Positions 4,711-55,896 of a DNA stretch of 64,000 nucleotides are shown here, one piece after another. This DNA comes from Antedon mediterranea (Eukaryota; Echinodermata; Crinoidea; Comatulida; Antedonidae). Position 1 is the stretch's first letter. Each line of letters starts with the position of its first letter. Position numbers and translations under genes: made by a program. The DNA is taken from NCBI RefSeq assembly GCF_964355755.1, contig NC_092674.1, positions 29,500,001 to 29,564,000 on the forward strand. The letters are read 5' to 3'. The notes beneath the pieces were generated by a model that saw nothing but the letters and a program-made list of their open reading frames with translations, searched no databases and had not been told where the DNA came from.

Positions 4711-7700
4711 ATGGCAGTAGACGTGGTACAGTTGGTTTATGTTGCAATTGTTTTGATTATTGCAACTATTTTGCTTGTAAGTTAAATTTTAAATATATTT
4801 TTATATATACATATGCATTTAAGATTAAGTATGAACGTTACTACTTATAATTTAGTTTGTAGTGTCACACAGACCGGTAGTCAGGTACACTATCTTCTTC
4901 TGATTCAGACTGGCTGGTGGCTGGCTAGCTAGCAAGTTACTGTGTGTGGGGCCCTCTCTCTCCTGCTGAATATATGATGAAAGGTGTATTGATTTAGGCA
5001 TCATCAGAGGGCCCCAGCAAAAAACAGTCTATCATGTTATAATACTAATAATAGTGCTTCTTACAAGCATAATATTAATAATATAGGCGGTACAGTTGGC
5101 CACTATCACTATTAAAACCTAGCACAATTTTTAGTACTTCTACTAGCCAGACTAAAGGCCTATTTATTAATTATATATATTATTATAAATATCAAGTACA
5201 AGGAAATAGGCTAGTGTGTTCCCACTATTTTGTTTATATTTTCAGAGTTTAATATTCATTTATATCTCAAGCCCAATGCCTGATTTACGTCGATTTGAAA
5301 GCGAAAAGTATTTTTTAAATCCCAACAATGGAAATGAAAAAGTGTCTTTCCCAAGCATAGATGACCCTCCAAACATTGAACTGTCTGTAGTTGTTCCTTC
5401 TTATAATGAAGAGGAAAGATGTAAGTATTTCACAAACAACAGTTTAAAATATAAATATGACAAAATAAGCATTGCAATGACTGTATATTGAATATTCAAT
5501 TTATTTGTACTAATCATATTTTGGTTTTTTCAGTACCTATAATGTTAGATGAGGCTTTAGAATATCTTGAATCAAGACAAGTAAGTACACAGACACTCCT
5601 CACACCACCTTCCTTTCTTTCACATTGTTCAACAAATTTACTATTATACAGTACATGCTGTGTTCTTTGATCTTTAATTTGCCATAATTGTACAGTGTTC
5701 TTTGATGCTTTTATACCTTTCTTATATGATATGTTTTAACTCTTTAATATAATTGTTTTTGCAGAAAGAAAATTCCTCTTTTACTTATGAAATTGTAGTA
5801 GTTGATGATGGTAGTAAGGATAAAACTTCAGAGGTTTGTCAGTTTCTTATATGTTTGTGTTCTTGTGCACACTGTAATGAACAGTCATTAACCCTTCTCA
5901 AACAATTTAAAACACATGTGACTTTAGACCCAGCATTAATCTCTATTTATAACTTGAATACTCACTGAGTTTTGGTTGAAATTAAATGTTTCCTTCTTTT
6001 GTCTTTTTATAAGTGAAATAATTATTTATTTCAGTTTTTAGTCGCGTACAACGCGAATCTACAGCTCACTATGTCGGTCGGTTAACTTGACCAACGCGAC
6101 TATTACGCAACTGCAACTGCATAATAATACTGAATAACTTTATTCAAACTGCAAAATGGCCTATTTAAAGTCTGAATTTATTAATCTTCATTTTTTATGT
6201 TTTATGTTACCTACTGCACAATGTCAATACTTTTTCATTTTGTTTAGGTCGCTTTAGAATATTGCAAAAAATGGAGCATTAGCAAAGTACGAGTACTAAC
6301 ACTTGCTCAGAATCGGGGCAAAGGCGGTGCGGTCAGGTTAGGTGTTTTTAGCTCCAGAGGGCGCAAGATACTTTTTGCCGATGCAGATGGGGCTACTAAG
6401 TTTGAAGACTATACGAGCATGGATAAAGCCTTGCAAGGATTACTAAAAAATGATGTAAGAAGAATTTCTTAGTAATTTGGTATAGATAATTCAACAATGT
6501 ATTCACTGAACAAACTCAAGACAGTCAAATCTAGACATTTCTATTCAGTCATATTCTAATTTATAAAAAGTGTGCATTATAAATATAATCCAACGTTAGA
6601 AACTGTCGCATCTTAGGTCAAAGGTTAAAAATGATCGCATTAAGCAGATAATTATTTGATTTGAAATAGATAATTTTGTCACGAGTTGAATAGGTTAAAC
6701 CTGGCTTCCACAGAACTTTTATCGGCTACTTGAAAAATAAACAATAACATAGTAATAATGTATATAATAATATTTAATATTATCAATTTTTAATATATTC
6801 AGAGGTCTAATATTTATAATATTTATTAAATCATTTTGTTGTGAAATTTGACGTTTATTTATTGCAGAATGAGATGGGTATAGTTTGTGGGTCAAGAGCC
6901 CATTTACAATCAGAAGCTGTAGCAGAGGTATTGACAACATTGCTTGCAAAGTTATTTATTCAAATTTACGATATACATTTGGCTCAGTAGAAGTGAGGCA
7001 ATCTAACAACAGGACACTGAGCTCACCTTGCCAAGATAAAAACTTGTAACTTATGTCTGGCTGCGACAAATGCCAACAGTACTGTACTATGTGTGTCTGT
7101 TAAAGGACGTGAAACTGATCGTGTCGCAGCCACATTTAAACCCTTTGATCTCTGGAGCTCAGCATCCTGTTGTTAGATGATTACCTTGTTAAAAGACAAT
7201 GGTACCACCCTCTTTACATGTTTTCTTTTTTTCAATATTTAGAGGTCTTTTTTCCGTACGATCCTTATGTATGGCTTTCATTTTCTTGTTTGGTTCCTGT
7301 GTGTTAGAGGCATCAAGGACACACAGTGTGGGTTTAAGCTTCTATCAAGGAAAGCAGCTAGCCAAGTCTTTACTTGTCTACACGTCAATAGATGGTCAGT
7401 TTTACTTTTATTTTCTGGTCTAGTTGTCCCATGACCTAGAGGATTGTAGGGACGTAGCAGATGAGATACAGTCCACCAAGTCCTTCCATAGGGGTATTGG
7501 TAGTTGTACCCATCATGATGTGATATACAGGCATAGACCATATCTCCCAGTGGTGTCGATGGTTCTCCTGAACCGACGCCCTTGTAGTTGGTTTTTTTTA
7601 GTACTTATTGGGTGTCCAACCACTCTCCACACCATGCTCCTAAAGAATTTGGTGGGTAATGTTAATAATATAATTGTTTTTGTTTGGTAGGGCATTTGAT

Positions 7701-8737
7701 GTGGAACTTCTTTACATTGCGCAATGTCTCAACATTCCAATAGCCGAAGTGGCTGTCAACTGGCAAGAAATAGATGGTTGGTTTAACATAAAAATATATT
7801 GCTTAACGGCATCGCCTATTTGTCATTGCGTTGCCCCTGCCATAAATAGTTTATCCGTCGTGCACAGTGCTCTACTCCATAGAAAGCCAAAGTTACAGGA
7901 ATAACGGATTGTTTATTCTTGTGTGATATACAGTATATTTTTAGTATAACGCATTACTGCACCAAATTGGTATATTGAATCTGCCCTGATAAAGAAAGAA
8001 ATACATTTATGATAAATTATAATACTGTAATAGGTTTATGTGTTAATGATGATAAAGATCGAATTTCAAAGATGTTAAATCCCAGTGTTAATGCATCATC
8101 TGCCTCCCCTGTGGATACATTACATACAGTAATATGCAAATATATGTATCCATTTATGAAATTACCTAATTAACATAATCATAAATTATACCATGTGCCA
8201 CATTAATAAAGTTATAATTGCTTTGTTATACTTTTAAACAAAGGTCATTGAATGTGATACCAACCACATTATCTATGTTATGTCTTGGTGCCATGCAGAC
8301 TTTTTACTACATTTCTTGGAAAGATGGGCTGTTTTCAAATGTAATTTAAAACGTTGCCAGGATGCAAACTTTTATTATCTACAGAATAGACTATGATAGG
8401 TTAGCCCAAAGATAGCTTAACCCAAACCCTGAATTATATAGTGTATATATTACCCTATAATTTCTCCCTGCTAACTTGAGCTGAGGTATTTTGTCATTTA
8501 CAGTATGGTGAAATTTATAAAATCCAATTAATTGACTAAGATTGGTTCATTAAGCAGTATTGATCGAATGATATTTGTTAATCTCAATTGATATATTTTC
8601 ATATTTATATTTATCCCATAGGATCCAAAATGGTTCCAGTTTTCAGTTGGATTCAGATGGGAAAAGATATTCTACTTATACGACTTCGTTATCTGATTGG
8701 CGCGTGGACGATAACAGACAAAAACAAGCGTGAATAA
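4711..8737 (+). CDS. ALG5: dolichyl-phosphate beta-glucosyltransferase ALG5
   Basis: ALG5 transfers glucose from UDP-glucose to dolichyl phosphate at the cytosolic face of the ER. The product, Dol-P-Glc, donates glucose for the lipid-linked oligosaccharide used in N-glycosylation. Nine exons join in phase: 4711-4776, 5246-5420, 5534-5580, 5765-5833, 6248-6454, 6868-6927, 7243-7394, 7691-7776 and 8622-8737 (stop 8735-8737). They give 325 residues, matching the usual length of about 324. An N-terminal membrane anchor spans residues 7-31. The GT-A (GT2) fold follows, with LSVVVPSYNEEERL, VVVDDGSKDKT, NRGKGGAVR, the DADGATKF metal and nucleotide-sugar motif, CGSRAHL, IKDTQCGFKL and WAFDVELLYIAQ. 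The start is the first ATG in frame with the anchor. The C-terminus has no KDEL-type signal; the anchor should hold the enzyme in the ER. No lesion is visible. Confidence 0.97.
6997..7185. mobile_element. hairpin element in ALG5 intron 6
   Basis: The left arm ATCTAACAACAGGACACTGA is matched inverted by the right arm near 7150-7178. An inner pair, TGGCTGCGACA and TGTCGCAGCCA, lies between them, making a two-tier palindrome of about 185 bp. No protein is encoded. I call it a nonautonomous inverted-repeat element. It is unlike families A and B elsewhere in the window. Confidence 0.6.
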
Positions 8738-8983
8738 CGTACCAGTGTTTTTTAGTTTGGCGTCTCATTTACACGTTTACCAATTCCAAAATTGAAAATG
8801 TAATAATTTTAGCATCCCAATTTGACAATTATCATAGTAGATTCACTTAATATATGAATGATATTATGGTACTGTTATGTTTGTATCAAAATTCATTATC
8901 TTCCCCGAGAGAACTATGATGTAATGTGATTACGTTGGCCTAGTTTTTAGCATACCAAAGACATCAGCAATTCTTACTGTTAA

Positions 8984-8989
8984 TAAATA
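8984..8989 (+). terminator. candidate poly(A) signal of ALG5
   Basis: AATAAA lies about 250 bp past the ALG5 stop, in the doubled form AATAAATAAA, directly before a SINE. Confidence 0.5.
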
Positions 8990-9002
8990 AATTCAGATCT
9001 TG

Positions 9003-9195
9003 CAGTGAAGCTGTAGCTTGGTGGTTAACATGCTTGCCTTCCAATCCCAATGTCTGGTGTTCAATTCTGACTTAGTGCCATGGTTGTAACTCACGACTTT
9101 TCACTCCTTATGCCACAAATGAGATTTAGTTTAATGTTTTAAAAGCTTTGTATACTGTAGTTTATCCATCCTGTAACTTGTAAGTCTGTCTCTGT
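9003..9195 (+). mobile_element. tRNA-derived SINE (copy 1)
   Basis: A Pol III A-box-like TAGCTTGGTGG at about 9014 and a B-box-like GGTGTTCAATTC at about 9056 sit at tRNA spacing. The copy aligns with the sequence at 25040-25210 through both boxes and beyond, including CAAATGAGA and a shared 3' half ending near TGTAACTTGTAAG. Two dispersed copies with a tRNA head and a common body define a SINE family. Confidence 0.75.
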
Positions 9196-9882
9196 TGGAT
9201 GCGCATTCTCCATTCATTCTACATCATTACATGGAGCATTTGATCCCAATCTCCTCCTAATATTCCAAGTGTTGGATCCCACCATACATTATCAAAGCAA
9301 TACATTAATAAAAGCCACCAAGTAAAGCTTTTCTAATGTCTTTTAATATGTTCTTATTATTTGTAATTGGAGAGGGTTTAAATCAAAAAGGAAAAATAAT
9401 GTTGGAAATACAGTATATAAAGATGTGTGGCTAAGTCTAAAGTACAGTAGTTTTTGTATTACCTATTATGTAGTAGCCTGCAATAGACTCACTGCAACTA
9501 TGTATGTATGCATTATACTTAATGAATCCTTAAAGCAGTAATTACATGTGTTTACTCTATAACCTTTTAATTTTTTTTATAAGAGTAATCTTACACACTG
9601 TTTATTGTAGTGAATAAACTTTTTTTTAATATAAATAAAATCATATCTTATTACAGAAAAAAATGTTTCACTGCAGTTACTGCAGTAGAATAATTCTGAT
9701 ATGATTGCTATAATATGGTAGAGCTGGAACTAGCAGTGGCCCATGATTGTTAGTATATTTTGTTTGTTCTTCTGAGAAGGAGACACTTAATGCATATAAA
9801 TGTATTGAAAACTTTTACCTTACCTATATTTGAAAAAAAAAATGATGTGGAATCATGATTTAAGAAGTATTATCACTTAACT

Positions 9883-10051
9883 AAAGCTCTGTCTACATTA
9901 TCAAACTAGTTTGACAAAAAAAAAAGTGTGATGTGCCCAAATATGGTAGTGATATGCCCAAATATAATAGTGATATGACATCATCATGTCCATATATGGG
10001 CACATCATATTTTGTTGTCACTTAAAGTTTGATACCGTAGAAAGAGCTTTA
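9883..10051. mobile_element. hairpin MITE, family A (CArG-bearing)
   Basis: The termini are AAAGCTCTGTCTACATTATC and, inverted, GTAGAAAGAGCTTT. The subterminal parts are TCAAACTAGTTTGACAAAAA and TTGTTGTCACTTAAAGTTTG. The arms contain CCAAATATGG (9937-9946) and CCATATATGG (9990-9999), both fitting CC(A/T)6GG. No coding capacity. Confidence 0.85.
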
Positions 10052-10511
10052 TATGATGAAATATATTTATATATAACAATGGATAGTATACAGTATTTTT
10101 GTATCTAAGTACACTATTCTCAACTCAACCAGTGTCCATAAAATTTGTTTAAACAAAAAAGATAAATGGACATCTCTTATATAATAGAAATATATTAATA
10201 AAATCAATTAGTGAATTACAGTATTATAAATTGGCTGAAAGTTAAATTGTGTTATTTGTAAAACTGCTGAAACTTAAAACCTAATGTATAAAAACAAAAA
10301 ATATTATTCCATAATAGGAGGCATGTAGTTGAGTCTATGAAAACGAACATAGAGGGGATATGCAGGGGGAAAAAAAAGGAAAATTATCGACTAACTAATT
10401 GGATTGGAATATGTTTTAATCCTTGTACGACAATATCTGTATAGATTAATGCTTTGGTCGTATTTTAGATAAATTAAAAGATACTAATTGCAATCTGGAG
10501 TACTGTATTAA

Positions 10512-10739
10512 ATGAGCAAGATTACAATAGCAAAAGAACGGTATCTTGTTTTGGAAAGAAAACGATCACAAAAAAAGTATGGGTGGTATACACCGTACAT
10601 CGAATCGCTGGCAGAAAAAAAAAAAGTTTTTAGATATAAAATGACTCCAGATAATATAAAGTTTGCATACGGATTGACCCCTTATTATGAACAGGTACCG
10701 TCCGATAATGAAAGTTTTAAAAAGGGCGCGTATAAATGA
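10512..10739 (+). CDS. possible small single-exon ORF, 75 aa, unrecognised
   Basis: An ATG-initiated frame encodes a basic 75-residue peptide. It is rich in Lys and Tyr (KKYGWYTPYIESLAEKKK, ending FKKGAYK) and has no signal peptide or membrane segment. AATAAA follows about 16 bp after the stop. It lies between ALG5 and Smad1/5 on the same strand. Its composition is less AT-biased at third positions than random frames nearby, which is why I list it. I recognise no family. Small basic proteins of cilia or sperm can look like this, but that is only a guess. It may be chance. Confidence 0.25.
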   Translation: MSKITIAKERYLVLERKRSQKKYGWYTPYIESLAEKKKVFRYKMTPDNIKFAYGLTPYYEQVPSDNESFKKGAYK

Positions 10740-12143
10740 AACTAACTTCTTTCCAATAAAATTGATGTGCAATAATTAAAAAGTTAAAAACTTTAAAAAG
10801 TTAACGCAACGCACGCATGAAATTATGTCACTCAGAACGAATAGTTCAGGGTGTCTGTACCTCTCCTTTATTTTCGAATTCAAATATGGTCCCTACTACG
10901 GTTCTTATTTAATGGAAAAGGTCTTTCCTTATTCAGGAAGGCGTGGAAATAATCTTTTCAAACAATAGACAACACAGGCTCAACACCCTCTGGCTTCTTG
11001 CTCACTCTGTGTGCCTCCGTCGTCCAGACGCCGCTTCTCGATGACGTCAGCTCCGTAGGTCAATCCCATATAACACACTTATATAAAATAGTTCTACTGT
11101 AGACTCGATTAAAAATATTACACTAATTGTAATTTTCTAAAATTAGTCAATACTATTATGTGAAATTATAAATTTTAAGTTTTTATATAGTATGCATTTT
11201 GAACTTGAATTAAATACTATTTTATCATTTTTTGTTGCGGATTGATATGATATGTGAACTGCCAAAGTATCTTTTTCGCTCGACTCGCTCACAAAAACTG
11301 CTCCAGTCCGTTGATTTCGTCGCCAACCAGTCTCAGCTATTTTAGCCTAGAATTAGTGAATGAACGGAAGAAAAAAACTCTTGTCATTTGGACGAGGAAA
11401 ACATCTTTTCATTGGTAATTGATTGCTTTATATCGAGTTATTGTTGAATAATTCCATTAGCATTTTTTTTATAAATCAGGTATGTTATGTTGATGTGAAT
11501 TTATAATATTGTTGTGTCTAAAACTCTTCCACATGCGTTTTTTTGGTTTGTGTGACGGTGGTGTGAGGCTGTTGATCCTCCTCACAACAGCGAGAAAAAT
11601 AATATCGAGAGGGTATAGCCTAGGCTAGGCCTATTTTGCAAAGTGTTTACAGAATGAAATTATTTGATGATAACATTGACAACAATTTTGCCTATTTATA
11701 GCTTAGTATAGTAGGCCTCTATAGGCCTAGGCCTAGCTAGTATCGGCCTAGGTTTAGGTAGGATCTTTTTTTTACAATTATAATTTATTGATTGAAACAT
11801 TTCATTTATTTCGTTGTCTGGCCTCTCTAAAGTTAGGGCCAGGCGCTACTACTGCACCTTAAAAAGTGGCTAGTCTACCTAGGTAGGCTCTAACCTATAG
11901 CCTAATAAATAATAATAGACCTACACTGTCTGTGTGTACACGGTATAAATAGGCCTAGCCTATGCCTAGTCTTATTTAAATAATAATTGAATAGGGGACA
12001 TGCACATTTCTAAACCAATTTTTCTAGGCATACCTCATTGCCATAAAATTAATTTGAAATATAATTTGTTTTTCTATTAGTAATAAAATCAGTCATAAAA
12101 ATCCTGACATAAAAGTTTTATAATATATTTCATTTCAGGTTGA

Positions 12144-29997
<17,854 letters not shown>

Positions 29998-30417
29998 CGT
30001 TCTTGTTTTTCCACGTGTCTAGTACTCACAAAATGCTTGCAACCAAAATTTATTTATTTTTGGTGGTTAATTATGCGAAAATCTAAATGTCGCATCCTTG
30101 TGTTATTTTTTTTAGAAAGAGATAATTGAATGTTTTCTGTTATTTGTGTTGCCTGCCTATGATTGTTAATGTGTGAAAAGTTGATCAAGATATATTGTAA
30201 ATATATTTGTTTAAATAATCAATTGTTTTTATTACTTTTGACATAGATTTAGATTTTTCCCAGTTACAGTACTTACAGTAGTCTTCACCTGCTGTGTACA
30301 AACAAATCCACAAACATTTGCTATCAAATAATTAAGGCTGTTAAATTCTGTCTATCATGCACAAACTTCCAGACTTTCAGCTCAAAGGCGTCTATTCTTT
30401 GACCAGCCAAGTGATGT

Positions 30418-30540
30418 CAATTTTTGGGCCAGCTCAAAAGTGTCCACTTTTGGGCCAGTCCAAGAGTGTCCATTTTTGGGCCAGTCCAAGAGTGTTCATT
30501 TTTAGACCAGCACAAGAGTGTCTGTTTTGGGACAGTCGTG
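30418..30540 (+). repeat. minisatellite of about 28 bp, four to five degenerate units
   Basis: The word TTTTGGGCCAGTCCAAGAGT recurs with drift (GGGCCAGCTCAAAAG, TAGACCAGCACAAGAG). It may lie in the Smad1/5 3' UTR. Confidence 0.85.
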
Positions 30541-32924
30541 TATTCTAATATATTACTTGTGAACCAATACTGTATTGCTCTACATTTTTTAACAATAAAT
30601 TTTTCTATCTATTATAAATTGTAAATATTATTTTCCAAGGAGCTTACTCATCCGTGGCTTTTTAATTTGCATATTCATAAGCTTATTAATTTTGATTTAT
30701 TACTTATTTTCAATGCGTTTATCTTGTGAATAAAAATGCACATAAATTTTGACATTAATACTGGCAATGTTTTGATGTTCCATTAAACTTATGAATTTAA
30801 CATAAATCGCTTATCCCAAACATGTGAAACTTATGTTCAGTTTAACGACATTCAAACACTTTTATCATGAATTTTAACGCACCATAAGTGGTGTATTTTA
30901 TGGCGGAAACATCGTGTGGTTATATCATCGTAAATTTGGTGTTAACATGTTAATGTTGTGTAAGTTTTATATTGGCTGATACTGTGTGTCAGTGATGTGG
31001 TACAAGTGAGATGAATTACGGATTGTAGTTATACTAACTAGGGCCCAAATTTGATCACAAAATGTTATTTGTGAAATAGTTTTTTGTTAACATTCGATTG
31101 GGATATACAACACACTAATCATGGAGTTTTACATTAGTTTTAACAGAAGATACTATTGTATATATTGGCATATGACCATGTTAGGAAGCCATTGCGGTGC
31201 ACATGCTTCATCATATGGTTCTTATTAATACATAAACTGCGTAGATTTCACGCTTAAGTGCACATTAAGTTCGCATGACATGTTTTGCAGTGATATTAAA
31301 TAGTGTAGAAGGTATGTTAGTGACTACAGATGGGTTTCAACAGTAATATAGGGAGAAGGAAACGTATTCTTTATTCATATGTCAAAATGCATAACAAAAT
31401 ACAGTCAAAATTCACCCCAAAAAATAACATTTTGTGAAGGAAAACATTTAAGAACACTAATTGAATTACTGTATGGCATGGTTGATTATCACATTGTTTG
31501 TTGAAGTCTATGTCAACAGATGTATACAATACTTAAAATCCAAGTATTCTTGTTGTTTTATAATTGATATGATGGTATGCATGTTATCTACTGATAAATA
31601 AATAATTAATCATTAATTTAAATGTAATATTTGATAATGCAGATAATGATATTGTGTGGGTTTATTTCATTATTAATTAAACAAAAGGCAAATTAGGCCA
31701 AATCTGATTGATAAAGTGGACTTTAATTCAAAGAAGACCATATATATTTAAACAGCAGTTGATTCTCACAAAACTGGACCTAAAAACGATCCTAAAATGT
31801 CAAATTCTTTTTTAATATTTGAACTGCAATCAGATAACAGTGTTTGCTAGCGAATGAATGATGTTGACTGTACATACTGTTATTGCGAGTTGAATAAACT
31901 GTATGTAAAGGTCACCACAATACTAAAATGTAAGATTTTGTATAAAAAAAAAAGTTAGTTTATCGCACTTTATGTTTTTTAAATTGACTGACATAATGCT
32001 TATGTTTTAAAAGGTCATCAGTAAAAGCTATACTGTAGAACGAAAGATGCCAAGTGTGTACTGAAGTCAGATCTGTAAACATACAAATATCCTCGAACAA
32101 AAATCAGGGATGGCCTCACATTCACACTTAGGCTAAGGGAAACACTTACCCCTAAAATTAAAAAAATCTTCTATCTAAGTGAATACAATTTACTTTACTA
32201 CTACTTAAATGTGTATATATATTTAAGTGGAATACATTAATGGAAATATCTCGGCGCTTAGAAGTTTCACAACATTAGGCGCTATATCCAGGATATTATT
32301 ATTATTATTAAGTGTGATTGGTGAATAAGGCACAGTTTTCTAGCAGATTTTGAGGTAGTTTCTTTGGTAAAATCCCAGTGACAAGTATTAACAATACTTT
32401 CTAAAAGAGCGCAACATGTTTTGGTTTATTATACTGTACTGATATTTAAAATAAAAAATCTATTGGTAGATTTGTAATACTGTACACTGTACCAAATAGG
32501 TAATGAAACCATAGATCCAGTATGAAAGATATCTCGTATCATTTCATTTAAAACTCCCCATATTGGGATTCGAACCAAATATTTTGTAATTAACTGATTG
32601 CGCCTAATTTTAATTATTTCGTCTGAGATATTCGGACAAATCTTTTTAAATTTCTGAAATGGTTTGTTATTTTCGATATGCATGACTGCACGGACAGAGG
32701 CACAAACCCATTAGTCCATAATGTTGTTTTCTTTAACATATGGCTTGTAAATATATCTTGATTTTTACTGTGATTATTTAATGAAATTCCTCCAATGATT
32801 TGGTGGTCGGTCAGCTGTGATTACGCACACAAATATATATAGAATTAATAGATTAATATTATTGTATAGATGTTTCTTAATGCAATTCTGATATATTGTA
32901 ACTATTGATACAATCATGATGTAA

Positions 32925-33205
32925 TGTAATGATTATGAAGGTAAATCATGATGTAATGATTATGGACCTAAATCATGATGTAATGATTATGGACCTAAAT
33001 CATGATATAATGATTATGGACCTAAATCATGATGTAATGATATGGAGGAGGTAAATCATGATGTAATGATTTGGGGGAGGGGGTGGGGGTGGGACTAAAT
33101 CATGATGTAATGATTATGTAAAATCATGATGTAATGAATATGAGGTAAATGGTGGTAAATCATGATGTAATGATTATGCGGTAAATCATGATGTAATGAT
33201 CATGT
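32925..33205 (+). repeat. minisatellite built on AAATCATGATGTAATGAT
   Basis: About ten units of 20-30 bp share AAATCATGATGTAATGAT, with variable spacers such as TATGGACCT and a G-rich insertion near 33073-33090. Confidence 0.9.
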
Positions 33206-33916
33206 ATGTAAATTAGGATGGGAAAGGATAAATATTGCGAACCATTCAATCTTAGTGTAAGGTCTTAAGGTAATTTTAAATTGGCATTCATAATTCATAT
33301 GAATTTATATTATTACCGTATAATCTACATTTTTTTTGCTTTTTGACAATCGGCCAATTCAAGGAAACTGGGTCAAGCAACAATATCATATCTTATATTT
33401 CAACAGCTTATCTTGACATTTAAACAGAATATTCTTAAAGTGGTATAAAAATTAGTAAGATAAGAAGCTAATTACTGTAAAAAAATTAACTGGAAATGTT
33501 TTATCCTTGTAAATTAAACCTCGCTATGGACTTAATTGCTGTAAAATATCTGAAATTGTGGGGATTTTTATATTTGTAAACCAATCCTGTATGTTGTTAA
33601 CTGTCTTGATCACTTTTCATTTGTAATCTTTTGTGTATTTAGAAACAAAATAACTTATAGATATTGTTAATGATATTGCTATTTATTTTATTTGTATGCG
33701 TCTTTGTACTATTGTGTGAATATTTTTTTTTGTAGGTAAGTTTAATAAAGAAGCATGCTTATAGAATATAGATTGAAGAAAAACACACAAAAGCAAAGTA
33801 CTAGACGGACTTAAAACAAGAAAAAAAACGGTAGAAATAAGTGCATGATTGAATGTTAAAGTTCAAAATAAAAAGCTGTCGTCTGTAGAAATAATATCCT
33901 ATGTTTTTTATTTATT

Positions 33917-34190
33917 AAGCTCTGTCTACACTATCAAACTTTATGTGACAAAAAAATGTGATGTGCCTATATGGACATGGTGATATGGTCATATTTTATA
34001 TTATTACCGTATAATCTACATTTTTTTTGCTTTTTGACAATCGGCCAATTCAGGGAAACTGGGTCAAGCAACAATCTATCCTGTTTTGAAATTATGGTCA
34101 TATCACTACCATATTTGTGAATATCACTAACATATTTGGGAACATCACACTTTTTTGTCTTAACTAGTTTGATAGTGTAAACAGAGCTTT
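33917..34190. mobile_element. family A MITE carrying copied flanking DNA
   Basis: The termini AAGCTCTGTCTACACTATCA and GATAGTGTAAACAGAGCTTT are typical. The interior contains 81 bp (33995-34075) that copies 33304-33384 with one mismatch. Immediately after come 19 bp (34077-34095) identical to 34288-34306. Confidence 0.88.
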
Positions 34191-34543
34191 ATATTGTTTT
34201 GTTAGTGTTGCTAATATCAAAATGTATTGTTTGTAAAAAGCTGTATGTGTGACGGATCATGTCAAAATTTCAACTGGAGTCACTCTTTATCCTGTTTTGA
34301 AATTATTTTTTTAGCGTTACTGAAATCATACATTATTGAAGTAAAAAATACTTTTCTGCAGTAGAATAAATTGATGATTTTAATTTCCTCCATCAGCCTC
34401 ACTTCAAAACCATACAATAGATTGATATACTAAAGATTAAATACATTATTTGAATCTTTTTAAAAACCAAGTTTTTATTAAAAACGTTGATCTCATATTA
34501 TTATATTATTATTATTATATACAGTAATATTGAATTGAGTACA

Positions 34544-36352
34544 TTGAGCTAGATGAACATCACTAATGTTACCCCTCTAATTACAGGGTTCTTGAGCTAG
34601 ATGAACATCACTAATGTTACCCCTCTAATTACAGGGTTCTTGAGCTAGATGAACATCACTAATGTTACCCCTCTAATTACAGGGTTCTTGAGCTAGATGA
34701 ACATCACTAATGTTAGCCCTCTAATTGCAGGGTTCTTGAGCTAGATGAACATCACTAATGTTACCCCTCTAATTACAGGGTTCTTGAGCTAGATGAACAT
34801 CACTAATGTTACCCCTCTAATTACAGGGTTCTTGAGCTAGATGAACATCACTAATGTTAGCCCTCTAATTGCAGGGTTCTTGAGCTAGATGAACATCACT
34901 AATGTTACCCCTCTAATTACAGGGTTCTTGAGCTAGATGAACATCACTAATGTTAGCCCTCTAATTACAGGGTTCTTGAGCTAGATGAACATCACTAATG
35001 TTAGCCCTCTAATTACAGGGTTCTTGAGCTAGATGAACATCACTAATGTTAGCCCTCTAATTACAGGGTTCTTGAGCTAGATGAACATCACTAATGTTAG
35101 CCCTCTAATTACAGGGTTCTTGAGCTAGATGAACATCACTAATGTTACCCCTCTAATTACAGGGTTCTTGAGCTAGATGAACATCACTAATGTTAGCCCT
35201 CTAATTGCAGGGTTCTTGAGCTAGATGAACATCACTAATGTTAGCCCTCTAATTACAGGGTTCTTGAGCTAGATGAACATCACTAATGTTAGCCCTCTAA
35301 TTACAGGGTTCTTGAGCTAGATGAACATCACTAATGTTAGCCCTCTAATTACAGGGTTCTTGAGCTAGATGAACATCACTAATGTTACCCCTCTAATTAC
35401 AGGGTTCTTGAGCTAGATGAACATCACTAATGTTACCCCTCTAATTACAGGGTTCTTGAGCTAGATGAACATCACTAATGTTAGCCCTCTAATTACAGGG
35501 TTCTTGAGCTAGATGAACATCACTAATGTTACCCCTCTAATTACAGGGTTCTTGAGCTAGATGAACATCACTAATGTTACCCCTCTAATTACAGGGTTCT
35601 TGAGCTAGATGAACATCACTAATGTTAGCCCTCTAATTACAGGGTTCTTGAGCTAGATGAACATCACTAATGTTACCCCTCTAATTACAGGGTTCTTGAG
35701 CTAGATGAACATCACTAATGTTACCCCTCTAATTACAGGGTTCTTGAGCTAGATGAACATCACTAATGTTACCCCTCTAATTACAGGGTTCTTGAGCTAG
35801 ATGAACATCACTAATGTTACCCCTCTAATCACAGGGTTCTTGAGCTAGATGATAAACAGATGAACATCACTAATGTTACCCCTCTAATTACAGGGTTCTT
35901 GAGCTAGATGAACATCACTAATGTTACCCCTCTAATTACAGGGTTCTTGAGCTAGATGAACATCACTAATGTTACCCTTCTAATTACAGGGTTCTTGAGC
36001 TAGATGAACATCACTAATGTTACCCCTCTAATTACAGGGTTCTTGAGCTAGATGAACATCACTAATGTTACCCCTCTAATTACAGGGTTCTTGAGCTAGA
36101 TGAACATCACTAATGTTACCCCTCTAATTACAGGGTTCTTGAGCTAGATGAACATCACTAATGTTACCCCTCTAATTACAGGGTTCTTGAGCTAGATGAA
36201 CATCACTAATGTTACCCCTCTAATCACAGGGTTCTTGAGCTAGATGATAAACAGATGAACATCACTAATGTTACCCCTCTAATTACAGGGTTCTTGAGCT
36301 AGATGATAAACAGATGGACATCACTAATGTTACCCCTCTAATTACAGGGTTC
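34544..36352 (+). repeat. 48-bp minisatellite, 37 units
   Basis: The unit begins TTGAGCTAGATGAACATCAC and ends CTAATTACAGGGTTC. I count 37 units; three carry an 11-bp insertion near GATAAACAGAT, giving a span of 1809 bp. Diagnostic substitutions (TTACCCC or TTAGCCC; AATTACAGG, AATTGCAGG or AATCACAGG) are reshuffled along the array. A decayed partial unit follows to about 36385. There are no unique spacers, so this is not CRISPR-like. Confidence 0.98.
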
Positions 36353-37845
36353 TTGAGCTAGATGAGCTACAAATAACCCTCTAATTTTAAACCACTTTTG
36401 CGCCAGAAGCACAATTGCTCTGTATTCAGTATTTACATAATAGTAGTGTCCCTCTACTTGCTTTGTTCTTTTTACCCATCATTTTATAACTAGTATTAAA
36501 TGCTTACATCGTCAAAATGATCACATGTTTGTTTTGTACATAGTAATAAATGTTTTCCTTCAAATTGTTTTCAAGTTTTTTTCATTTACTAGTTTATACT
36601 ATAAGGTAAGCCTAATTTTGGGGAGGGGTGGGGAGGTTTGATGCAGCAGTGGGTAAGGAGATCCATTTGATCAAATGGTTCGTTCATCACAAAGTCCAAA
36701 GGATCGACGCAAGTTTTTCTTGATAAAATTGTACGTGCGCGTACAAACGCTGATAACATTGTATTCGTTTTTATACGCGCACCTCAGCTTTGTGTAACCA
36801 TCTGTCCTAGATCTAGACAACACATACAAAAACTGTATTGAGGAAACGAGTATTATAGAGGGCGCTAGGTACTTAACTGTACTGTTTTATTTCGAGGCTC
36901 TGATAAGTTTGTTTGTTTGTTTGTTTTTACTATATTTCTTTAATTAAAGTTATAGATGTTGTTCTGGTTCATGTTCTTTTGTGGGCCTATATCAATTATA
37001 ATATTTACAGGATTAATTGTACACATTCACGATACAGACAAAGCAACACAACATAGCCACAAAAGTCACATAGATTATGCTATATGCCTACACATACCAA
37101 GTTTATATATTTTGTTATTGTGGTTAAAAGATTCGGTCTAAATATTTTAATTTTAATTTTATTTAATATCAAAATTTTAGCCATAGGCGTCTGAATTTGT
37201 AGGGACTCCATATACTTGTGCGTAAGCGCATCGCATCGCGAGTAGCTAGTTTTAGCTTTATATTTGTTTAGAATTATTTATTCCTAAAAATTACATGATG
37301 TAATTAATTACAAATACAAAACAAATCAGACATTTAAAATGCGTGCATGTACGTACGTATCACTAAAACAAATATAGATAAATAAAACATACCGTACTTT
37401 GTATTACTAAAATACGCATTTAGGCCTAAGTAAAAATTCTATTCTACTGAATAGAGTGAGAAAATTGGTTGTTTATTGACATTTAATATAATTAAAAAAC
37501 GAAGAAATGAGGTTTAGTTGTAAATTAATTGACAGTGCAGTGTGTATTTGTAGTATAGTAACATATAAGCATAGGAATAAGTTTCTCCATAGAAGTAACA
37601 AAATAACGAAAAACGCAACCTGGAAAGATAAAGAAGGCCATTTATTTTACGCTTTCGCAATATTATGTTTCGAAATTCTGAATTTGTTTATTTCGTCATA
37701 GCTTCGAGGTGATTCGAATATTTTAACAGATGCGTGTATGCCCATCCTATCATAAAAAAAAACAAATGAACTTGTTATTGATACTAATTCTATTTAAACG
37801 GGTAGGATTTTAACAACGGAATCGATGAACCGTGTTTGTGAAGCA

Positions 37846-37948
37846 TGACGTCATGTCTATTTTTAGCACTAATCCTTGATGGCAGCTTTCAAAACAGTAA
37901 AGTCACTGGATCTAGTAGGTTCTAGTGTGAAAGGCTGTTTGTATATAA
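37846..37948 (+). promoter_or_regulatory. SQSTM1: SQSTM1 promoter: CRE-like palindrome and TATA box
   Basis: TGACGTCA at 37846-37853 is a perfect CRE/ATF palindrome. TATATAA at 37942-37948 is a good TATA box. Transcription would start about 25-30 bp later, near 37970. A donor (AAAT/GTGAGT) at 38144 ends a noncoding first exon. Confidence 0.6.
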
Positions 37949-37969
37949 GTTAACGCTAAAACGTCGCTC

Positions 37970-38144
37970 TTCACTCAATCGACTGGCAGCAGGCAGAAGA
38001 TCATCTACAAAAACGAAGACTGAAAAGCGTTTAACTTTACGACATTTCTACAATTTGCTAAATTTATAGCTACTACGATACCGCAGTTAAAAAAGCAGTA
38101 GGACTAATTATTTTGAAGATCATCAGAGACGCAAAACGTGAAAT
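37970..38144 (+). other. SQSTM1: noncoding first exon of SQSTM1 (start approximate)
   Basis: It is bounded on the right by the donor GTGAGT at 38145. The next exon begins exactly at the ATG (39240), so the whole 5' UTR should lie here. The left edge is inferred from the TATA position. Confidence 0.5.
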
Positions 38145-38623
38145 GTGAGTAGGCCTACATTACTTGTATGATTGGAAATATCATCATACATCATTTTTCT
38201 GCGTCTCTTTTTTATTCTTCCTTAGTAAAAGCAAAAAAATTACTTTTAATTAAACCAAATAATATTTGGTAATGTGATGCGATATGCAATAGAATACTAA
38301 ACACACATTTTCCTAGAACCAGCTTATTCTTGAACTTGTAATTATTAATCAAAATTACAGTATAACTCACTAAAACAGTTTTAAACTTAAAAATTGGCTT
38401 AAATACTAAAGGCCAGGGAGTCTGCCTGAATATGCAATACATTCGAACTAATGTAAAAGATCCTGTTATATTTAGTTGGAATAGGTAATCTAAGAATTGT
38501 ATTATTATATATGAATTAAAAGAACCGATTTTTCTAGCAAGATGATTTTCTTACATAACGGCATCATACTCATAGTTTAAGCACTAACTTGTTCTCTAAA
38601 ATAAGTCAAGCGTGTTAAAATGA

Positions 38624-38643
38624 TGACGTCATAATTGGCCAAT
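38624..38643. promoter_or_regulatory. intronic CRE palindrome plus ATTGG/CCAAT pair
   Basis: TGACGTCA at 38624-38631 is followed two bases later by ATTGGCCAAT (38634-38643). That is a CCAAT box on both strands. It lies in SQSTM1 intron 1 and could be an alternative promoter or enhancer. Confidence 0.4.
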
Positions 38644-39239
38644 CATAATTCGTAATCTCTCTTCGCTTCACTGCTGCTTCTACTCTGATGTCAACAAAAT
38701 CGTCACGAAATTTGTGTACCAAAAATTGATGTTTAAATAATTAATTAAATGTACGCTTAATTTAAAATTTGTGTATGATATGCATGGAGTATTAGTCTTT
38801 GAGTTAGTTAAGGATTTTAATGCTTTTAAGTTGTGTAAATTAATTAAGCAGCAATGTCAGTAGGCCTCCTCATCATAGTCTATTATATAGCTGGCTAGTG
38901 TAGTAGACTCTAGTACTAGTAGTAAGTAGAGTATGTTCGGGGCGCTCTGCTCCGATCCTGGTGTAGTGTAGGTGGTCAGGAATTTATCGTGGTCAGCAGC
39001 CTACATAGACTACTTTAGGTCTAATTACTAATAACTATATAGTAGTTTATGCATGGAGGTATAAAATTATACCTCCATGGTTTAATGTGGCCTGCTAGAG
39101 TTTTGGATCAATATAAGATAACGCATATTTAGGTGGGTTTTTATTTTGCAAACAACTATACTATAAGCATATCCCCATAGGCCATATAGCTTTTAATGTT
39201 ACAATTTTAATTTATGATTATTTAATTAATTATTCACAG

Positions 39240-41392
<2,153 letters not shown>

Positions 41393-42700
41393 CCTCCTAC
41401 CAAGCTGGCCCTAGCAAGAAAAATCCAGGGGCTTAGGAGCAACATCTTTGGCTGGTCCGGATGTTGGCAACACTCCTTTTCAACTTTGTTTTATTAGATA
41501 GATGGTATTGGCACTATGTATAACCTTAATGTTTTAACATTTGATCATGTATTTTAAATGAAAACTGAGAATATATGTTTTGTTCTATAGACAAGATATA
41601 TTTCAGATATTAAACTCAAATATTATGTGGTGGTAAAGTTATATTTAAATTAAAGCATAGAAATTATAGATGTACCCTGATTGGTCAATTGATATCATGT
41701 AATATATAACTATAAGAAAGAAGTAATATAATATGCTTTATTATTGAAATTTACAATGGAATTTTTGGAACAAATTCCCACTTTTTAGTGGTTTTTTTTC
41801 ACCATTCACCGACTTCTTGATTCTGTTAAAAGTCATTTATTAAAGTAAATAAAATTATTTAAAATATTTTGATTAAAATGAATTAAATTAATAATTATTA
41901 TACCAGGAATTTCGAAAATAAATATATCTATTTTGGTTAAATATACCACAATCTCAATGCCATTTTAAAGAATATGTAAATTTGAAATTAACTAAAACGA
42001 GTTGTTTTTCCCAAATACAGTAAATGGTTAATGGAATTTATTGTTGAAATATTTAGTGGAAGCTAGAATAGTTTGTTATTAAAGAAAGTGTATTTAAGAA
42101 AGTTGACAACAATTAAATGTTGTGAGCAGAATTAGATAAAGTCATGTATACTTAAATTTACATGTGATCTCCAAAATATTCCAACTTCCAAAATAGTTAC
42201 TTATCATACCTCTACAGTTACATACTTGTGCCAAGTGACAGCATTTGAATCATTTACTATCCACGTGACCAATGTGAAAGGCTTCTTAAAGAGAATGAAT
42301 TATGTCAAAGGCTCAATAAAGAAAGATTTATTTGAAATATGTAATGTCAGCCGTATCATTTTCTGTACTATTATAGATTTTTTTTTAATAATCCAAAATA
42401 TTCGCTCTTTTAAATGTCATTTTAATGCATTAATATTACTATGTGAGCTTCGTATGGACGTATGCTAAAAGTTGTCTCGAAATTTTCCTTTTCCGAAAAT
42501 TCCTAAAATTCTGTATATTAATTTACTTTTCGTGTGCTATAGGCCTGAACTTGTTTAGGTTCTTTGTTTTATGTCCCTCATGTGTAATTGTGTATTGAGA
42601 TGTTATCTTAGCAGGACAGTCTGTACCTCTTACATGATTTATTTAATACATTTTGTAAAAAATATTTAAGCTCTGAATGGGAGAAACGGTCCTCTTTATT
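41393..42700 (+). other. SQSTM1 3' UTR and downstream spacer
   Basis: AATAAA at 41848-41853 is a plausible poly(A) signal. The open frame at 42226-42468 has no recognisable feature. Otherwise I see nothing but AT-rich sequence. Confidence 0.5.
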
Positions 42701-42759
42701 CTTCAACCAACAGGGCCATTACTGGTTGATACAATATATATATTAAAAAGTGGATATTT

Positions 42760-43760
42760 TGGAAATTTTTTTGAAAAAATCCCTGTACAGGGAAATTTTC
42801 GAAAAATGGCCGATTTTTTACCCTTTTATTTTTTGACATAAATGGTTACTACAGCATAATAAACATGCGCAGAGTCGAATAATTGTTTCTGCGCATGTCA
42901 ATTGAGCTATAGTAGCCACTTTTGACATAAATGGTTGCTATAGCATAATAAACATGCGCAGAGTCAAATAATGCGTTCTGCGCATGTCAATTGTGCTATA
43001 GTAACCAGTTTTATCGAAAAATAAAAAGGACGAAAATTGGCCATTTAAAAAAAAAAATCCCTGTACTGTACAGGGAAATTTTCAAAAATGCCCGATTTTC
43101 GACCCTTTTATTTTTTGACATAAATGGTTACTATAGCATAATAAACATGCGCAAAGTCAAGTAATGCGTTCTGCGCATGTGAATTGTGCTATAGTAACCA
43201 CTTTTGACATAAATGGTTACTATAGCATAATAAACATGCGCAGAGTCGAATAATGCGTTCTGCGCATGTCAATTGTGCTATAGTAACCACTTTTGACCTA
43301 AATGGTTACTATTATAATAAACATGCGCAGAGTCGAATAATTGGTTCTGCGCATGTCAATTGTACTATAGTAACCACTTTTGACATAAATGGTTACTATA
43401 GCATAATAAACATGCGCAGAGTCGAAGAATACATTCTGCGCTTGTGAATTGTGCTATAGTAACCAGTTTTATCGAAAAATAAAAAGGTCGTAAATTTGCC
43501 ATTTTTTTGAAAAAATCCCTGTACTATAGTACAGGGAAATTTTTGAGAAATGCCCAAATTTCGACCTTTTTATTTTTTGATATAACTACTTACTATGGCT
43601 CTATAAGATGATGATAACACAGTATATGCGCATATATGGCAATATTATTGCATAATTATTGATTTTTAAAAAGTGGATATTTTGGCCATTTTTAGAAAAA
43701 ATCACTGTCATAGTACAGGGAAATTTTGGAAAAATGCCCAAATTTCCACCTTTTAATTTT
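42760..43760. repeat. tandem array of hairpins nested inside larger palindromes
   Basis: Six units of about 78 bp lie near 42841, 42930, 43123, 43211, 43300 and 43388. Each is a hairpin: TGGTTACTATAGCATAATAA pairs with the closing TTGTGCTATAGTAACCA, with CATGCGCAG/CTGCGCATG inside. Blocks of two and four hairpins are separated by a second palindrome, AAATCCCTGTACAGGGAAATTT (43052-43085 and similar at 42775, 43510, 43697), and by inverse pairs of CCTTTTATTTTTT and AAAAATAAAAAGG. No protein is encoded. Confidence 0.88.
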
Positions 43761-43859
43761 TTGACATAGCTAGTTACTATGGCTCTATAGGATGGCTCTA
43801 TAGGATGATGTTAACACAATATATGCGCATATATGGCAATATTAACGCACAATGGGTAA

Positions 43860-45327
43860 GAAAGAATATAATATATTCTACATTCGCAACATTTAATTTC
43901 TAAGTAGTCACAGAACATAAATTGTGATTGAATTTCCTCAATACTACCCCATATCCCAAAACAACCCCATCCCTTCATAATACAAGAAATGAATCAAATG
44001 GTTTTCAAACATCACTAATATCAATGCCTATGGGGTTAGTAGAATGGAAGTTATATTAATCATCTGTTAAGATTTTTGATACTCTGGATCGAGCCCTATT
44101 TTAGAAGTCACATCAAACGCTACATTAACAATTTTTTGCTAAAACAACTCAACCGATTCGTGTTATTATCTGGGTTGAATTAAATATTGGAATTAATTAT
44201 GAACAATACAACTGAAAATATAATAGTAATATTGCAGTACTAGCGATCATCACTGGCGGCCTGTTTACTAATCAATCAGACTTGTGGTGGCACTACTCAT
44301 TTCTTATGGATAATATAATGCAACATCATTGTTTTGTCGAGTTCTGTCGACACTATCAAACTTTATGTGACAAAAAATGTGATGTGCCCATATGGTTGAG
44401 ATATGTCCAAATATAGTAGTGATATGACATCATCATGTCCATATATGGGCACATCACATAAAATAAGGTTTGATAGTGTAGACAAAGCTTTAGGCAAATA
44501 GATTGTTTATTGATTGTATTTTAGGATACATCAATATGTATCAAAATAGTTTGTCTTTCTTGCCGCCACCACAAGACTTAGGTGATTTAGTACATTGCAG
44601 TCAGGTGATCATTAGTACTTGCCAAGCTGCCCATGAAGTGCATTTAACTACATGCTAAAACGACACCCAAGAAAGTCACCAATCAAAACAGGTGTCTTTT
44701 GGTTCAAAGAACTGTTCTGATTGGATGACATGTTCACTTGAGTGCCAAACATTGGCTCATCGCAACATAGCAGCCAATTTGAGGTAGATGAAGAAGGCCC
44801 GTCTATACAAGCCTTTTTTATACAATACAATAAGCCAAAAAAAAAAAGATGCTCATTAAAAAGATTCTACTTGCAAATAAGGCACACTTAAATAAATTTT
44901 CCTTTTGTTTATGTAGTCTAGTTTTTAAACACTAAAACTAAGGGCCTGTTCAGACCTACAGAGTTATGCTTTTGTATCGTATGTGGCGTAAAACTCTTAC
45001 TGGACCAGTAAGAAATTAGCGGAAGCCATCTCTTATGACACTGAACTCTTGTTGGTTATGAAAGCCCAACAAATCAACAACTTTGATCTTAAACTGATCA
45101 AATTTACTCTGAACGTACCATCACAAAACATTCATGCATGAATGAACGAAACAAATTTGTAAAATAACAAATAAAAACATTTTGACACTTATGTACTAAA
45201 AGATATCACACGCAAACAAGTATACATTTTATCCTCCATGATGATACTACGAATTATATCAATTTAACCCCAAATTGCCTAGTATTTTATATATAAACCA
45301 CACAATGTTATGATTGTATGATCTCTC
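43860..45327. other. spacer between the hairpin array and TTC29
   Basis: It contains a family A MITE (44338-44492) and no recognised exon. The frame at 44648-44830 is unremarkable. Confidence 0.5.
44338..44492. mobile_element. hairpin MITE, family A
   Basis: The termini GTTCTGTCGACACTATCAAA and GGTTTGATAGTGTAGACAAA pair. The left-arm CArG site is degraded; the right arm keeps CCATATATGG. Confidence 0.85.
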
Positions 45328-45333
45328 TTTATT
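45328..45333 (-). terminator. TTC29: candidate poly(A) signal of TTC29
   Basis: TTTATT on the plus strand is AATAAA on the minus strand, about 110 bp past the TTC29 stop. Confidence 0.5.
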
Positions 45334-45439
45334 ATTATTTACACAGCTTAAAAGATCTACTAAGCTATTTACAGCTTCTCTATATACACACTGAACTTGG
45401 TTATTCAGATACAGTTATATTTTTGTTGACATAAACAAC

Positions 45440-48400
45440 CTACGAATCTTCATTCTCCGTGTCTGAAAAAAAATAAAAATTAATTTATGTTTATTGAATA
45501 CAAATAAACATAAAATAATACCTCTTTCACATCTGCATAAATTATTACAACTTGTAACCTGGTTTGATCTTCCGACTTATTAACGTTTTCATACTTGATT
45601 ACTATGATTGGTCAGTTTAATACCAGGGCAATACCCAGTATAAATATAAATTTCAATTCAAATATAAATTTCAATTCAATTCAATTCAATACACGCGCGC
45701 AGTAAGAACTGAGAACATCTTGGTACAAAAACATGCCTCTCACCAGTGAGATGTGACAAGGGTAATAACCTGGGCAATACACGCGTGCAGTAAGAACTGT
45801 GAACGTCTTCGTACAAAAACATGCCTCTCACCAGTGAGATGTGACAAGGGTAATACCAGGGCAATACACGCGCGCAGTAAGAACTGTGAACATCTTGGTA
45901 CAAAAACATGCCTCTCACCAGTGAGATGTGACAAGGGTAATACCAGGGCAATACACGCGCGCAGTAAGAACTGTGAACATCTTGGTACAAAAACATGCCT
46001 CTCATCAGCGAGATGTGACAAGGGTATAAGAGTTCATATAAATAAATAGATAATTTGTTAACTCACGTTGTTCAGTCAAAGTCTCCTCAAACTGATCACT
46101 TCGCATGTCCTTCCAATTAAGAAGTCGTTTCTTTAGTTCACGGGAAGGTTGATCAACGCATATAGCAAATGCTTGCAAGGCCTTGTGGGCGCTGGAGATC
46201 CCAAAGAGCACCCTCGTTGATGCTGTGGCAACATTGTCGTTCATACTGCGAGCGATATTGAATGCTTTGCCAAAATACTGAGATGCTTTCTCATACTCCC
46301 CCTATAAAATTTAACATTTTTAAAGCAATGATTAGAACAAGGTGTTATGTATGAATTATCAAAATTCCTTAAAAAATGGTCTCTCTGGATATATAAAGTT
46401 GAATTGAGTAAACTTACCAATGAATTGAATATGTTTCCTAAACACGTACAAGCCTCAGATTGAGCGCCATCTTGTTTACTCTTTTCTGCGACGTCAACAA
46501 ACATCTCCAGATAACGTATGGCATCTTCTAGTTTACCTTGACTATAAATAGAGAAGTAACAATTATTGTATGTTTACCTATTGTACACTGTACAATATAA
46601 ATATCAATTATGAGACCGTTTTACACCAGGTGAATTAATTCTGTTGCAAATTTTACTAGTTCGACAAAAAGAGTGTAATGTGCCCAAATATGGTAGTAAT
46701 ATGTCGCATATAAGTTTGATAGTCTAGAACGAGCTTAAGAATAAGATAGAGGGTGATAGATGATTATTGCAGTATGAATACTTATTTTAACTTACTTCTC
46801 GTATGATTTAGCTATAGCTTGACAGGCTTTCCCCACTCCTACTTCATCTCCAAGTTTTTTACACATGTCCATAAATCCATTGTGATACTGCCAATTTACA
46901 AACATATTAAACATTTAAAATGATAATCAATCCATCAATATTATGTCCATCTAATAACCAATATCTATATGTGGTTTTATTTATTTTTATCTAATTTATT
47001 TTAGTTTGTACATCTTAAGCTTGGTTCCTACTAGAGACGCAAGCAAGTTGACCAATGACAACTATCTGTTTGAATTTGAATAATTCATCGCTTTGTGATT
47101 GGTGAAATCACATACATCCTTGTGTTGCATCTCTAGTGGGAACCAAGCTTAAGATGTTACAAACTGATTTCAGACTAGTGTTATAAATGTACCATAAGAG
47201 CTGTTTCTGAATCTGCTATGTCTTCATAAGCCAGGCCTAGTCTGTAGCTTGCATCACCTTCTTTAGCCTCGTCACCACCTTTCAGAAAACAAATATTAAG
47301 TTAGTTAATAGCTAGGCTAGGGGGCTAGTATTTAGTCCTAATCCATTAACTTCACCCTACAAATACATTATGATGATAGCAAACTTACTTTCTTTAGCCA
47401 TATCAAAGGCTTGCTGGAAGTATTTGATGGCTAGCTCTGCGTTGTCGCTATCCCCTTTTTGTAATGCATCCGCTACAGCTGTGTACACCCTACGGAGATG
47501 TTCGCAAGCCGACGAGTGCAAATTCTTTCCATCGCTTGTGCACCATTCGTTTTTGGATGTTAAGTTGTAAAATTCTTCAAAATTTTCTGTTGCTTTGTTG
47601 TAATCTCCTAAAAAAACAAATTCATAAATGTTTTATTCTTGTTTTGGGTCATATTACTATTAAATTTGGGTCATACGTAGTATTTTACTTACGTCTACGT
47701 TCGAAGGCAAGGCCCATGTTACAATGCGCTTCCCCTTTCGTCCGTCCATCGCCTGGGATATCAACAGACGTGCTGAGACATGAGGAAAAGAAATGGTCGG
47801 ACAACCAAAGATCACCAGAGGTCAGGAAGTATTCCGCTAATTTATTCCTAGCTTTGTAAACTGCTTCTAGATCATCTAAAAAAAAATAAACAAAATTAGA
47901 AGTGTGATGTGCTCAAATATGGTAGTGATATGCCCAAATATGGTAGTGGTATGACATCATCATGTCCATATATGGGCACATAACATTTTCACAGTACAAC
48001 AATGTTACATACTTATTCTCAAAGCACCCTCCGCTTCTGTCAAATGTAATTTCAACTCATTTAGTTTTTCTTCCTGATCTTCGAGTAATGTGGTCGAGGA
48101 GTCGGAATCATTACTGCCTGATTTGAATTGCTGATCCTTCTGTTGTCTAATCAGCGCAAAGAGTTCTGAGAACGAGTGATGGTATCCATCCTTCAACATC
48201 TCTACGCACAGGTTGTGTTTATAACTGTTGCGGTATCTGTAATTAAAAACCGTTTTTAATTTTTCCCATTGGAATCAATTTTTACTAATATCTGAATACT
48301 GTTAGACCATTACAGTAGGCCTAAATCTATTTTTTGGTTTATTGCAATTTTTTTATAGTAATACGAAGATGCTTGTTTTTATAATACAGAAAAAATTACG

Positions 48401-48679
48401 GTACAATATATAACATTTAGTGGTTTTCAAACAAATTATTTTACTGTAAATAGATAAATTTACTAACTTTTGAACATCTGTGTTTGATAGGTTAGGTTGT
48501 TTCTGCCACATCGTGTGTTGTTTCAGTTGTACTTCTCTTTTCATCTTCAGCGTTGGTTTACGGTAGCCATCTTGAGGTTTTAGCTTGTTTGGTGGGCTCG
48601 GCACACGGTGTAACGTAACCTGGCCACGCATTTTGGAGTGCTCATGAGACGTGGGAATTGCGGGTAACGGAGCAGCCAT
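45440..48679 (-). CDS. TTC29: tetratricopeptide repeat protein 29 (axonemal)
   Basis: TTC29 is a TPR protein of motile cilia and sperm flagella, linked to axonemal dynein and intraflagellar transport; human loss causes male infertility. Minus-strand exons, 5' to 3': 48468-48679, 48013-48236, 47693-47875, 47389-47607, 47193-47278, 46796-46887, 46418-46541, 46067-46301 and 45440-45462. All splice sites and phases agree, giving 465 residues (human 475). The ATG lies directly after an acceptor, so the 5' UTR is in an upstream exon not located. Family hallmarks are VEMLKDGYHHSFSELFALI, then TPR-like helices around GEAHCNMGLAFE, ATENFEEFYNL, GDASYRLGLAYED, ACQAIAKSYE, AIRYLEMFVDVA and YEKASQYFGKAF. 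The end is FGISSAHKALQAF...LLNWKDMR. An acidic spacer rich in Ser and Asp follows the first helices. The last coding exon has only seven codons plus stop. No lesion. Confidence 0.96.
45692..46026 (+). repeat. 87-bp minisatellite, four units, in the last TTC29 intron
   Basis: Units start at 45692, 45780, 45867 and 45954 with CACGCGCGCAGTAAGAACTG (CACGCGTGCAG in the second). The unit is a multiple of 3, so open frames cross it on both strands; these are not genes. The array ends about 35 bp before the splice donor at 46066. Confidence 0.95.
46645..46737. mobile_element. degenerate family A MITE in a TTC29 intron
   Basis: The left arm is eroded (TTTTACTAGTTCGACAAAAA). One CCAAATATGG and the right terminus, GTTTGATAGTCTAGAACGAG, remain. 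Confidence 0.7.
47011..47157. mobile_element. hairpin MITE, family B, in a TTC29 intron
   Basis: CATCTTAAGCTTGGTTCC at the left is matched exactly inverted by GGAACCAAGCTTAAGATG at the right. The arms continue as ACTAGAGACGCAAGC and TTGCATCTCTAGT. This is the best-preserved family B copy. Confidence 0.85.
47896..47992. mobile_element. family A MITE core in TTC29 intron 2
   Basis: GTGTGATGTGCTCAAATATG to CCATATATGGGCACATAACA is the central hairpin; the usual AAGCTCTGTC termini are missing. It takes up most of a 136-bp intron. Confidence 0.75.
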
Positions 48680-55863: not shown

Positions 55864-55896
55864 AGAATTTACGGCTAAACCCTCATTGCCTATTTC

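Follow-up and report, generated by a model that had tools for sequence, protein, structure and literature searches.

The question raised by this locus was whether the close grouping of ALG5, Smad1/5, SQSTM1, and TTC29 in Antedon mediterranea represented a compact neighborhood older than the two rounds of genome duplication (2R) established for vertebrates, or one stretch of a chromosome conserved on a larger scale. The window, i.e., the whole 64,000-nt stretch of DNA analyzed, corresponded to C5:29500001-29564000 in a 354-Mb genome of 18 contigs. In five bilaterian genomes, the genes of the BMP pathway remain together on a single ancestral linkage group (PMC13121700), and C5 behaved alike for Smad1/5; that work is at whole-chromosome scale and, in its accessible part, reports no ALG5-Smad1/5 adjacency. 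The vertebrate BMP/TGF-beta repertoire resulting from 2R has also been published (PMC3238295, citing PMC2657120). Chromosome-scale linkage of BMP genes was already known for bilaterians; in the literature searched, no report of ALG5-Smad1/5 microsynteny was found, nor anything direct on SMAD9/ALG5/TTC29 synteny or a SMAD paralogon.

All four genes were located inside 44 kb, and each was single copy in the genome search, with strong matches to ALG5, SQSTM1, and TTC29 confined to the window. The ends of the group were as originally predicted, with the ATG of ALG5 at 4711 and the start codon of TTC29 at 48679 on the minus strand. The four predicted gene identities were firm (identity values rested on human ALG5, SMAD1, and TTC29 sequences that were not database copies): (i) ALG5 (dolichyl-phosphate beta-glucosyltransferase; 4711..8761, plus strand) had about nine exons, read as nine coding pieces with the last coding segment at ~8621-8760, and its product matched Pfam Glycos_transf_2, gave only generic bacterial glycosyltransferase matches in NCBIfam, all below cut-off, and shared 64% identity over 265 aa with human ALG5; (ii) Smad1/5 (BMP receptor-regulated Smad; 12198..29997, plus strand) contained MH1 and MH2 (Pfam), encoded by an MH1 exon at 12198-12596, linker pieces at ~24697-24921 and ~25243-25368, and MH2 pieces at 27587-27811 and 29596-29997, and its product ended in SSVS, shared 76% identity over 467 aa with human SMAD1, and had its best PDB matches in SMAD1/SMAD5/SMAD9/Mad, ahead of SMAD2/3 and SMAD4; (iii) SQSTM1/p62 (39240..41392, plus strand) carried PB1, ZZ, and UBA domains (Pfam), and its best PDB matches were Sequestosome-1; and (iv) TTC29 (axonemal TPR protein; 46068..48679, minus strand), whose 3' end may reach further toward lower coordinates, had its best PDB matches in 'Tetratricopeptide repeat protein 29' (E 1e-72) and shared 36% identity with human TTC29.

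No further host gene was recognized between the four genes, and the intergenic ORFs tested had no host protein domain; in the ~3.4-kb stretch between ALG5 and Smad1/5 (8762..12197), no protein domain was found in the longest ORF (10512-10736). An MH1 search of the genome yielded no second match of Smad1/5 grade (149.8 bits in the window, next 98.5). Separately, C7:2.280-2.322 Mb held a 42-kb tandem array of ~11 MH1-like matches, some of them broken.

ALG5 and Smad1/5 were adjacent and both on the plus strand, with ALG5 directly upstream, and this order and orientation matched those of mammalian ALG5-SMAD9. A null model with ~22,800 genes genome-wide and ~2,050 on C5 (density taken from a 264-kb region around the window) was used to compare the predicted linkage with random gene order. 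The ALG5 part stood: adjacency in the mammalian order had a chance of 0.05% genome-wide and, for an immediate human neighbor being adjacent within C5, of 0.4-0.6%, which would be lower if orientation were required. The TTC29 part was not strong: closeness of this kind, with one of ~44-60 eligible genes lying no more than three genes from Smad, had a chance of 12-16% when gene order on C5 was random, so TTC29 taken alone was compatible with chance.

The gene lists of cat and dog gave the map order RFXAP, SMAD9, ALG5, and EXOSC8 (PMC10969784 and PMC7143860), and the block with SMAD9-ALG5 was unrearranged in non-bat outgroup tetrapods (PMC11146322). EXOSC8, the mammalian ALG5 neighbor, was found 1.47 Mb away in A. 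mediterranea. Hemichordates keep 24 linkage groups, and local gene order is apparently not conserved even between two of them (PMC11175523), which makes the retained ALG5-Smad1/5 adjacency more notable. ALG5-Smad1/5 was likely a genuine ancient microsynteny, as observed in one invertebrate genome plus mammals.

The chromosome-scale comparison was applied to 14 test genes selected by the authors, non-randomly, from human 13q13, 4q31, 5q31, and 5q35 (the surroundings of SMAD1, SMAD5, SMAD9, and SQSTM1). Ten of the 14 were located on C5, compared with ~1.3 expected from its 9.0% share of genome length (P 2.5e-8, or 3e-6 if the C5 share of genes was set at 15%), and these P values serve as a guide only, because the gene choice was non-random and one unclassed TRPC locus was dropped. 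None of seven controls (PCNA, TBP, SNU13, TXNL4A, MAGOH, EIF6, and GTF2B) was on C5. By human region, C5 harbored (i) all five scorable 13q13 genes, namely NBEA (31.35 Mb), EXOSC8 (30.98 Mb), TRPC4/5 (4.56 Mb), DCLK (27.76 Mb), and UFM1 (4.21 Mb); (ii) four of six 4q31 genes, namely MMAA (27.30 Mb), SLC10A7 (23.56 Mb), POU4 (23.63 Mb), and ABCE1 (6.20 Mb); (iii) CANX (31.30 Mb), one of two 5q35 genes; and (iv) none of the 5q31 genes, of which only ETF1 was scored. The test genes off C5 were ANAPC10 and ETF1 (both C4), LSM6 (C11), and RACK1 (C6). NBEA on C5 (65% identity) ranked ahead of two other BEACH genes, and identities were 61% for DCLK, 66% for TRPC4/5, 84% for POU4, and 59% for SLC10A7. 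SUPT20H was not scorable, its Spt20 model having no match anywhere in the genome. A second TRPC gene (C5:30.83 Mb), considered as a TRPC3/6/7 ortholog and possibly of the TRPC7 type of 5q31, was unproven as such, being unassignable between TRPC3/6/7 and TRPC4/5, and was excluded from the count of 14.

These counts, together with a single unduplicated Smad1/5 and single-copy neighbors as expected of a pre-2R counterpart, supported C5 as a whole as the counterpart of the vertebrate SMAD1/5/9 regions. The tetrapod 'NF' (Nbea-Foxo1) synteny block contains Alg5, Smad9, Dclk1, Exosc8, Trpc4, and Ufm1 (PMC11146322). C5 resembled it in having ALG5 beside Smad and in also carrying NBEA, DCLK, EXOSC8, TRPC4/5, and UFM1, but unlike this compact block, the members were spread over 27 Mb of C5, and only ALG5-Smad was tight. 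The usual pattern of vertebrate 2R paralogons, with one pro-orthologue region facing several human regions that underwent reciprocal loss, was seen here as well, but with human regional membership taken from established map positions and cited lists and with 5q being mosaic. SLC10A7 (minus strand) and POU4 (plus strand) were divergent and 60 kb apart at C5:23.562-23.626 Mb, and SLC10A7-POU4F2 at human 4q31.22 are presumably likewise divergent; SLC10A7-POU4 was thus a candidate second ancient gene pair, and its retention as a second conserved pair indicated that some local order survives on C5.

The reading preferred, with good confidence, was that the window is part of an unduplicated chromosome, C5, which is the counterpart of the ancestor of the vertebrate SMAD1, SMAD5, and SMAD9 regions, and that it includes one likely genuine microsynteny, ALG5-Smad1/5. 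The C5 counts show that genes mapping in human to 13q13, 4q31, and in part 5q remained together on one chromosome here; on the vertebrate side, two genome duplications followed by differential loss would account for ALG5 lying next to SMAD9 and for TTC29 lying near SMAD1, the assignment of losses to particular vertebrate copies being inferred from mammals only. Same-strand ALG5-Smad1/5, with ALG5 directly ahead, would be the one gene pair to have persisted; that SQSTM1 and TTC29 also lie close to Smad1/5 would reflect local order on C5, perhaps old and perhaps not. The case shows that a local group of genes can resemble a preserved neighborhood when conservation acts at the level of the chromosome. 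This counterpart adds one invertebrate anchor for rebuilding the pre-duplication Smad1/5/9 chromosome, and it singles out ALG5-Smad1/5 as a pair whose persistence is testable across phyla and for shared regulation.

A tentative and rather unlikely addition to this preferred reading was that ALG5-Smad1/5 is held together by function, through a Smad1/5 regulatory element within or beyond ALG5 (genomic regulatory block): adjacency and order were retained across a long divergence, and such constraint has been proposed for BMP genes at chromosome level (PMC13121700), but it is common for some gene pairs to persist neutrally. Doubtful to a greater degree was a putative functional regulatory block of ALG5-Smad1/5(-SQSTM1-TTC29), older than the split of this lineage from vertebrates, in which Smad1/5 enhancers would lie within the neighbors and would have been partitioned among SMAD1, SMAD5, and SMAD9 after 2R.

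The 264-kb region around the window, annotated on its flanks by ORF calls and Pfam, displayed the 5'-side order PDZ/LIM protein like LMO7/LIMCH1, SREBP-like bHLH, COMM-domain gene, SLC13 transporter, and ALG5; beyond ALG5 the order was Smad1/5, SQSTM1, TTC29, TDO2, a 660-aa ORF (perhaps DDIAS, as judged by eye from its sequence), a RAB30-like GTPase, Mab-21 domain genes, a NIDO/AMOP protein, a sulfotransferase, and an ATRX-like gene. The names SREBP, LMO7/LIMCH1, RAB30, and ATRX were provisional, because they derived from residue patterns read by eye and generic domains. With the human positions taken to be 4q for TDO2, X for ATRX, and 13q/4p for LMO7/LIMCH1, these three fitted a SMAD-region chromosome; the SREBP, SLC13, and RAB30-like genes, presumably on human 17/22, 17/20/7, and 11, respectively, did not obviously fit a SMAD-paralogue block. 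Next to the RAB30-like gene, at C5:29.610-29.619 Mb, were two Mab-21-domain genes that arose by recent duplication and have long, unbroken reading frames, and a long low-complexity tandem array of MDISNDDMKDECDS repeats, open on both strands for >1,100 codons, adjoined the ATRX-like gene at C5:29.660-29.664 Mb.

The original prediction, in which one ancestral block was duplicated and then lost genes differentially, held at chromosome scale and in the retained ALG5-Smad order but was not supported in compactness, and its pairing of each neighbor with a different SMAD paralogue was a true adjacency for ALG5-SMAD9, with TTC29 and SQSTM1 being unequal evidence, judged by human map distances. Human TTC29 lies beside POU4F2, with SLC10A7 also a close neighbor, and is separated from SMAD1 by ~1 Mb and several genes; human SQSTM1 lies >40 Mb from SMAD5. 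TTC29 was ~5.9 Mb from POU4 and SLC10A7 here, so local order had changed either in this lineage or on the human side. SQSTM1 counted as chromosome-level evidence only, because it lies tens of Mb from SMAD5 in human and because 5q35 was mosaic (CANX on C5 and RACK1 on C6); SQSTM1-SMAD5 microsynteny was rejected in view of the human distance and of RACK1 on C6. A further reason for not counting a shared location on 5q was that human chromosomes 4 and 5 are also part of another paralogon, 4/5/8/10 (PMC2453138).

A compact four-gene ALG5-Smad1/5-SQSTM1-TTC29 neighborhood that predated 2R and was then broken up by differential loss was improbable. It would account for four single-copy genes within 44 kb, for TTC29 being convergent to Smad1/5 as it presumably is to human SMAD1, and for at least two of ~44 eligible genes lying no more than three genes from Smad (chance ~0.6% given C5, mostly owing to ALG5); against it stood the human SQSTM1-SMAD5 distance, the division of 5q35 genes between C5 and C6, the additional paralogon on chromosomes 4/5, the separation of TTC29 from POU4, and the unrelated flanking genes. 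The 44 kb was not established as a compact ancestral module, because the misfitting SREBP, SLC13, and RAB30-like genes shared the same 264 kb. Least probable of all, and very unlikely, was a grouping by lineage-specific rearrangement or chance with a coincidental match to the human map, which could explain one SMAD-region gene close to Smad, as in the random C5 orders above, but neither the ALG5 adjacency in mammalian order nor a C5 enrichment far above chance expectation.

Apart from the four genes, the sole other coding-like element in the window was a non-LTR retrotransposon (52980..56979, minus strand) outside the gene group, composed of a CCHC ORF1 with a weak GDSL match, an endonuclease, and a reverse transcriptase; no tRNA genes were found in the window. 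A 48-bp satellite of ~37 copies occupied 34544-36365, between Smad1/5 and SQSTM1. Introns and intergenic DNA of the window also contained a 21-bp dispersed repeat, GTGATATGCCCAAATATGGTA or the complementary sequence, at 9928-9977, 25886-26124, 34100-34148, 47904-47953, and 63185-63234, with 11 copies in one Smad1/5 intron; translations of loci on other chromosomes revealed the same motif.
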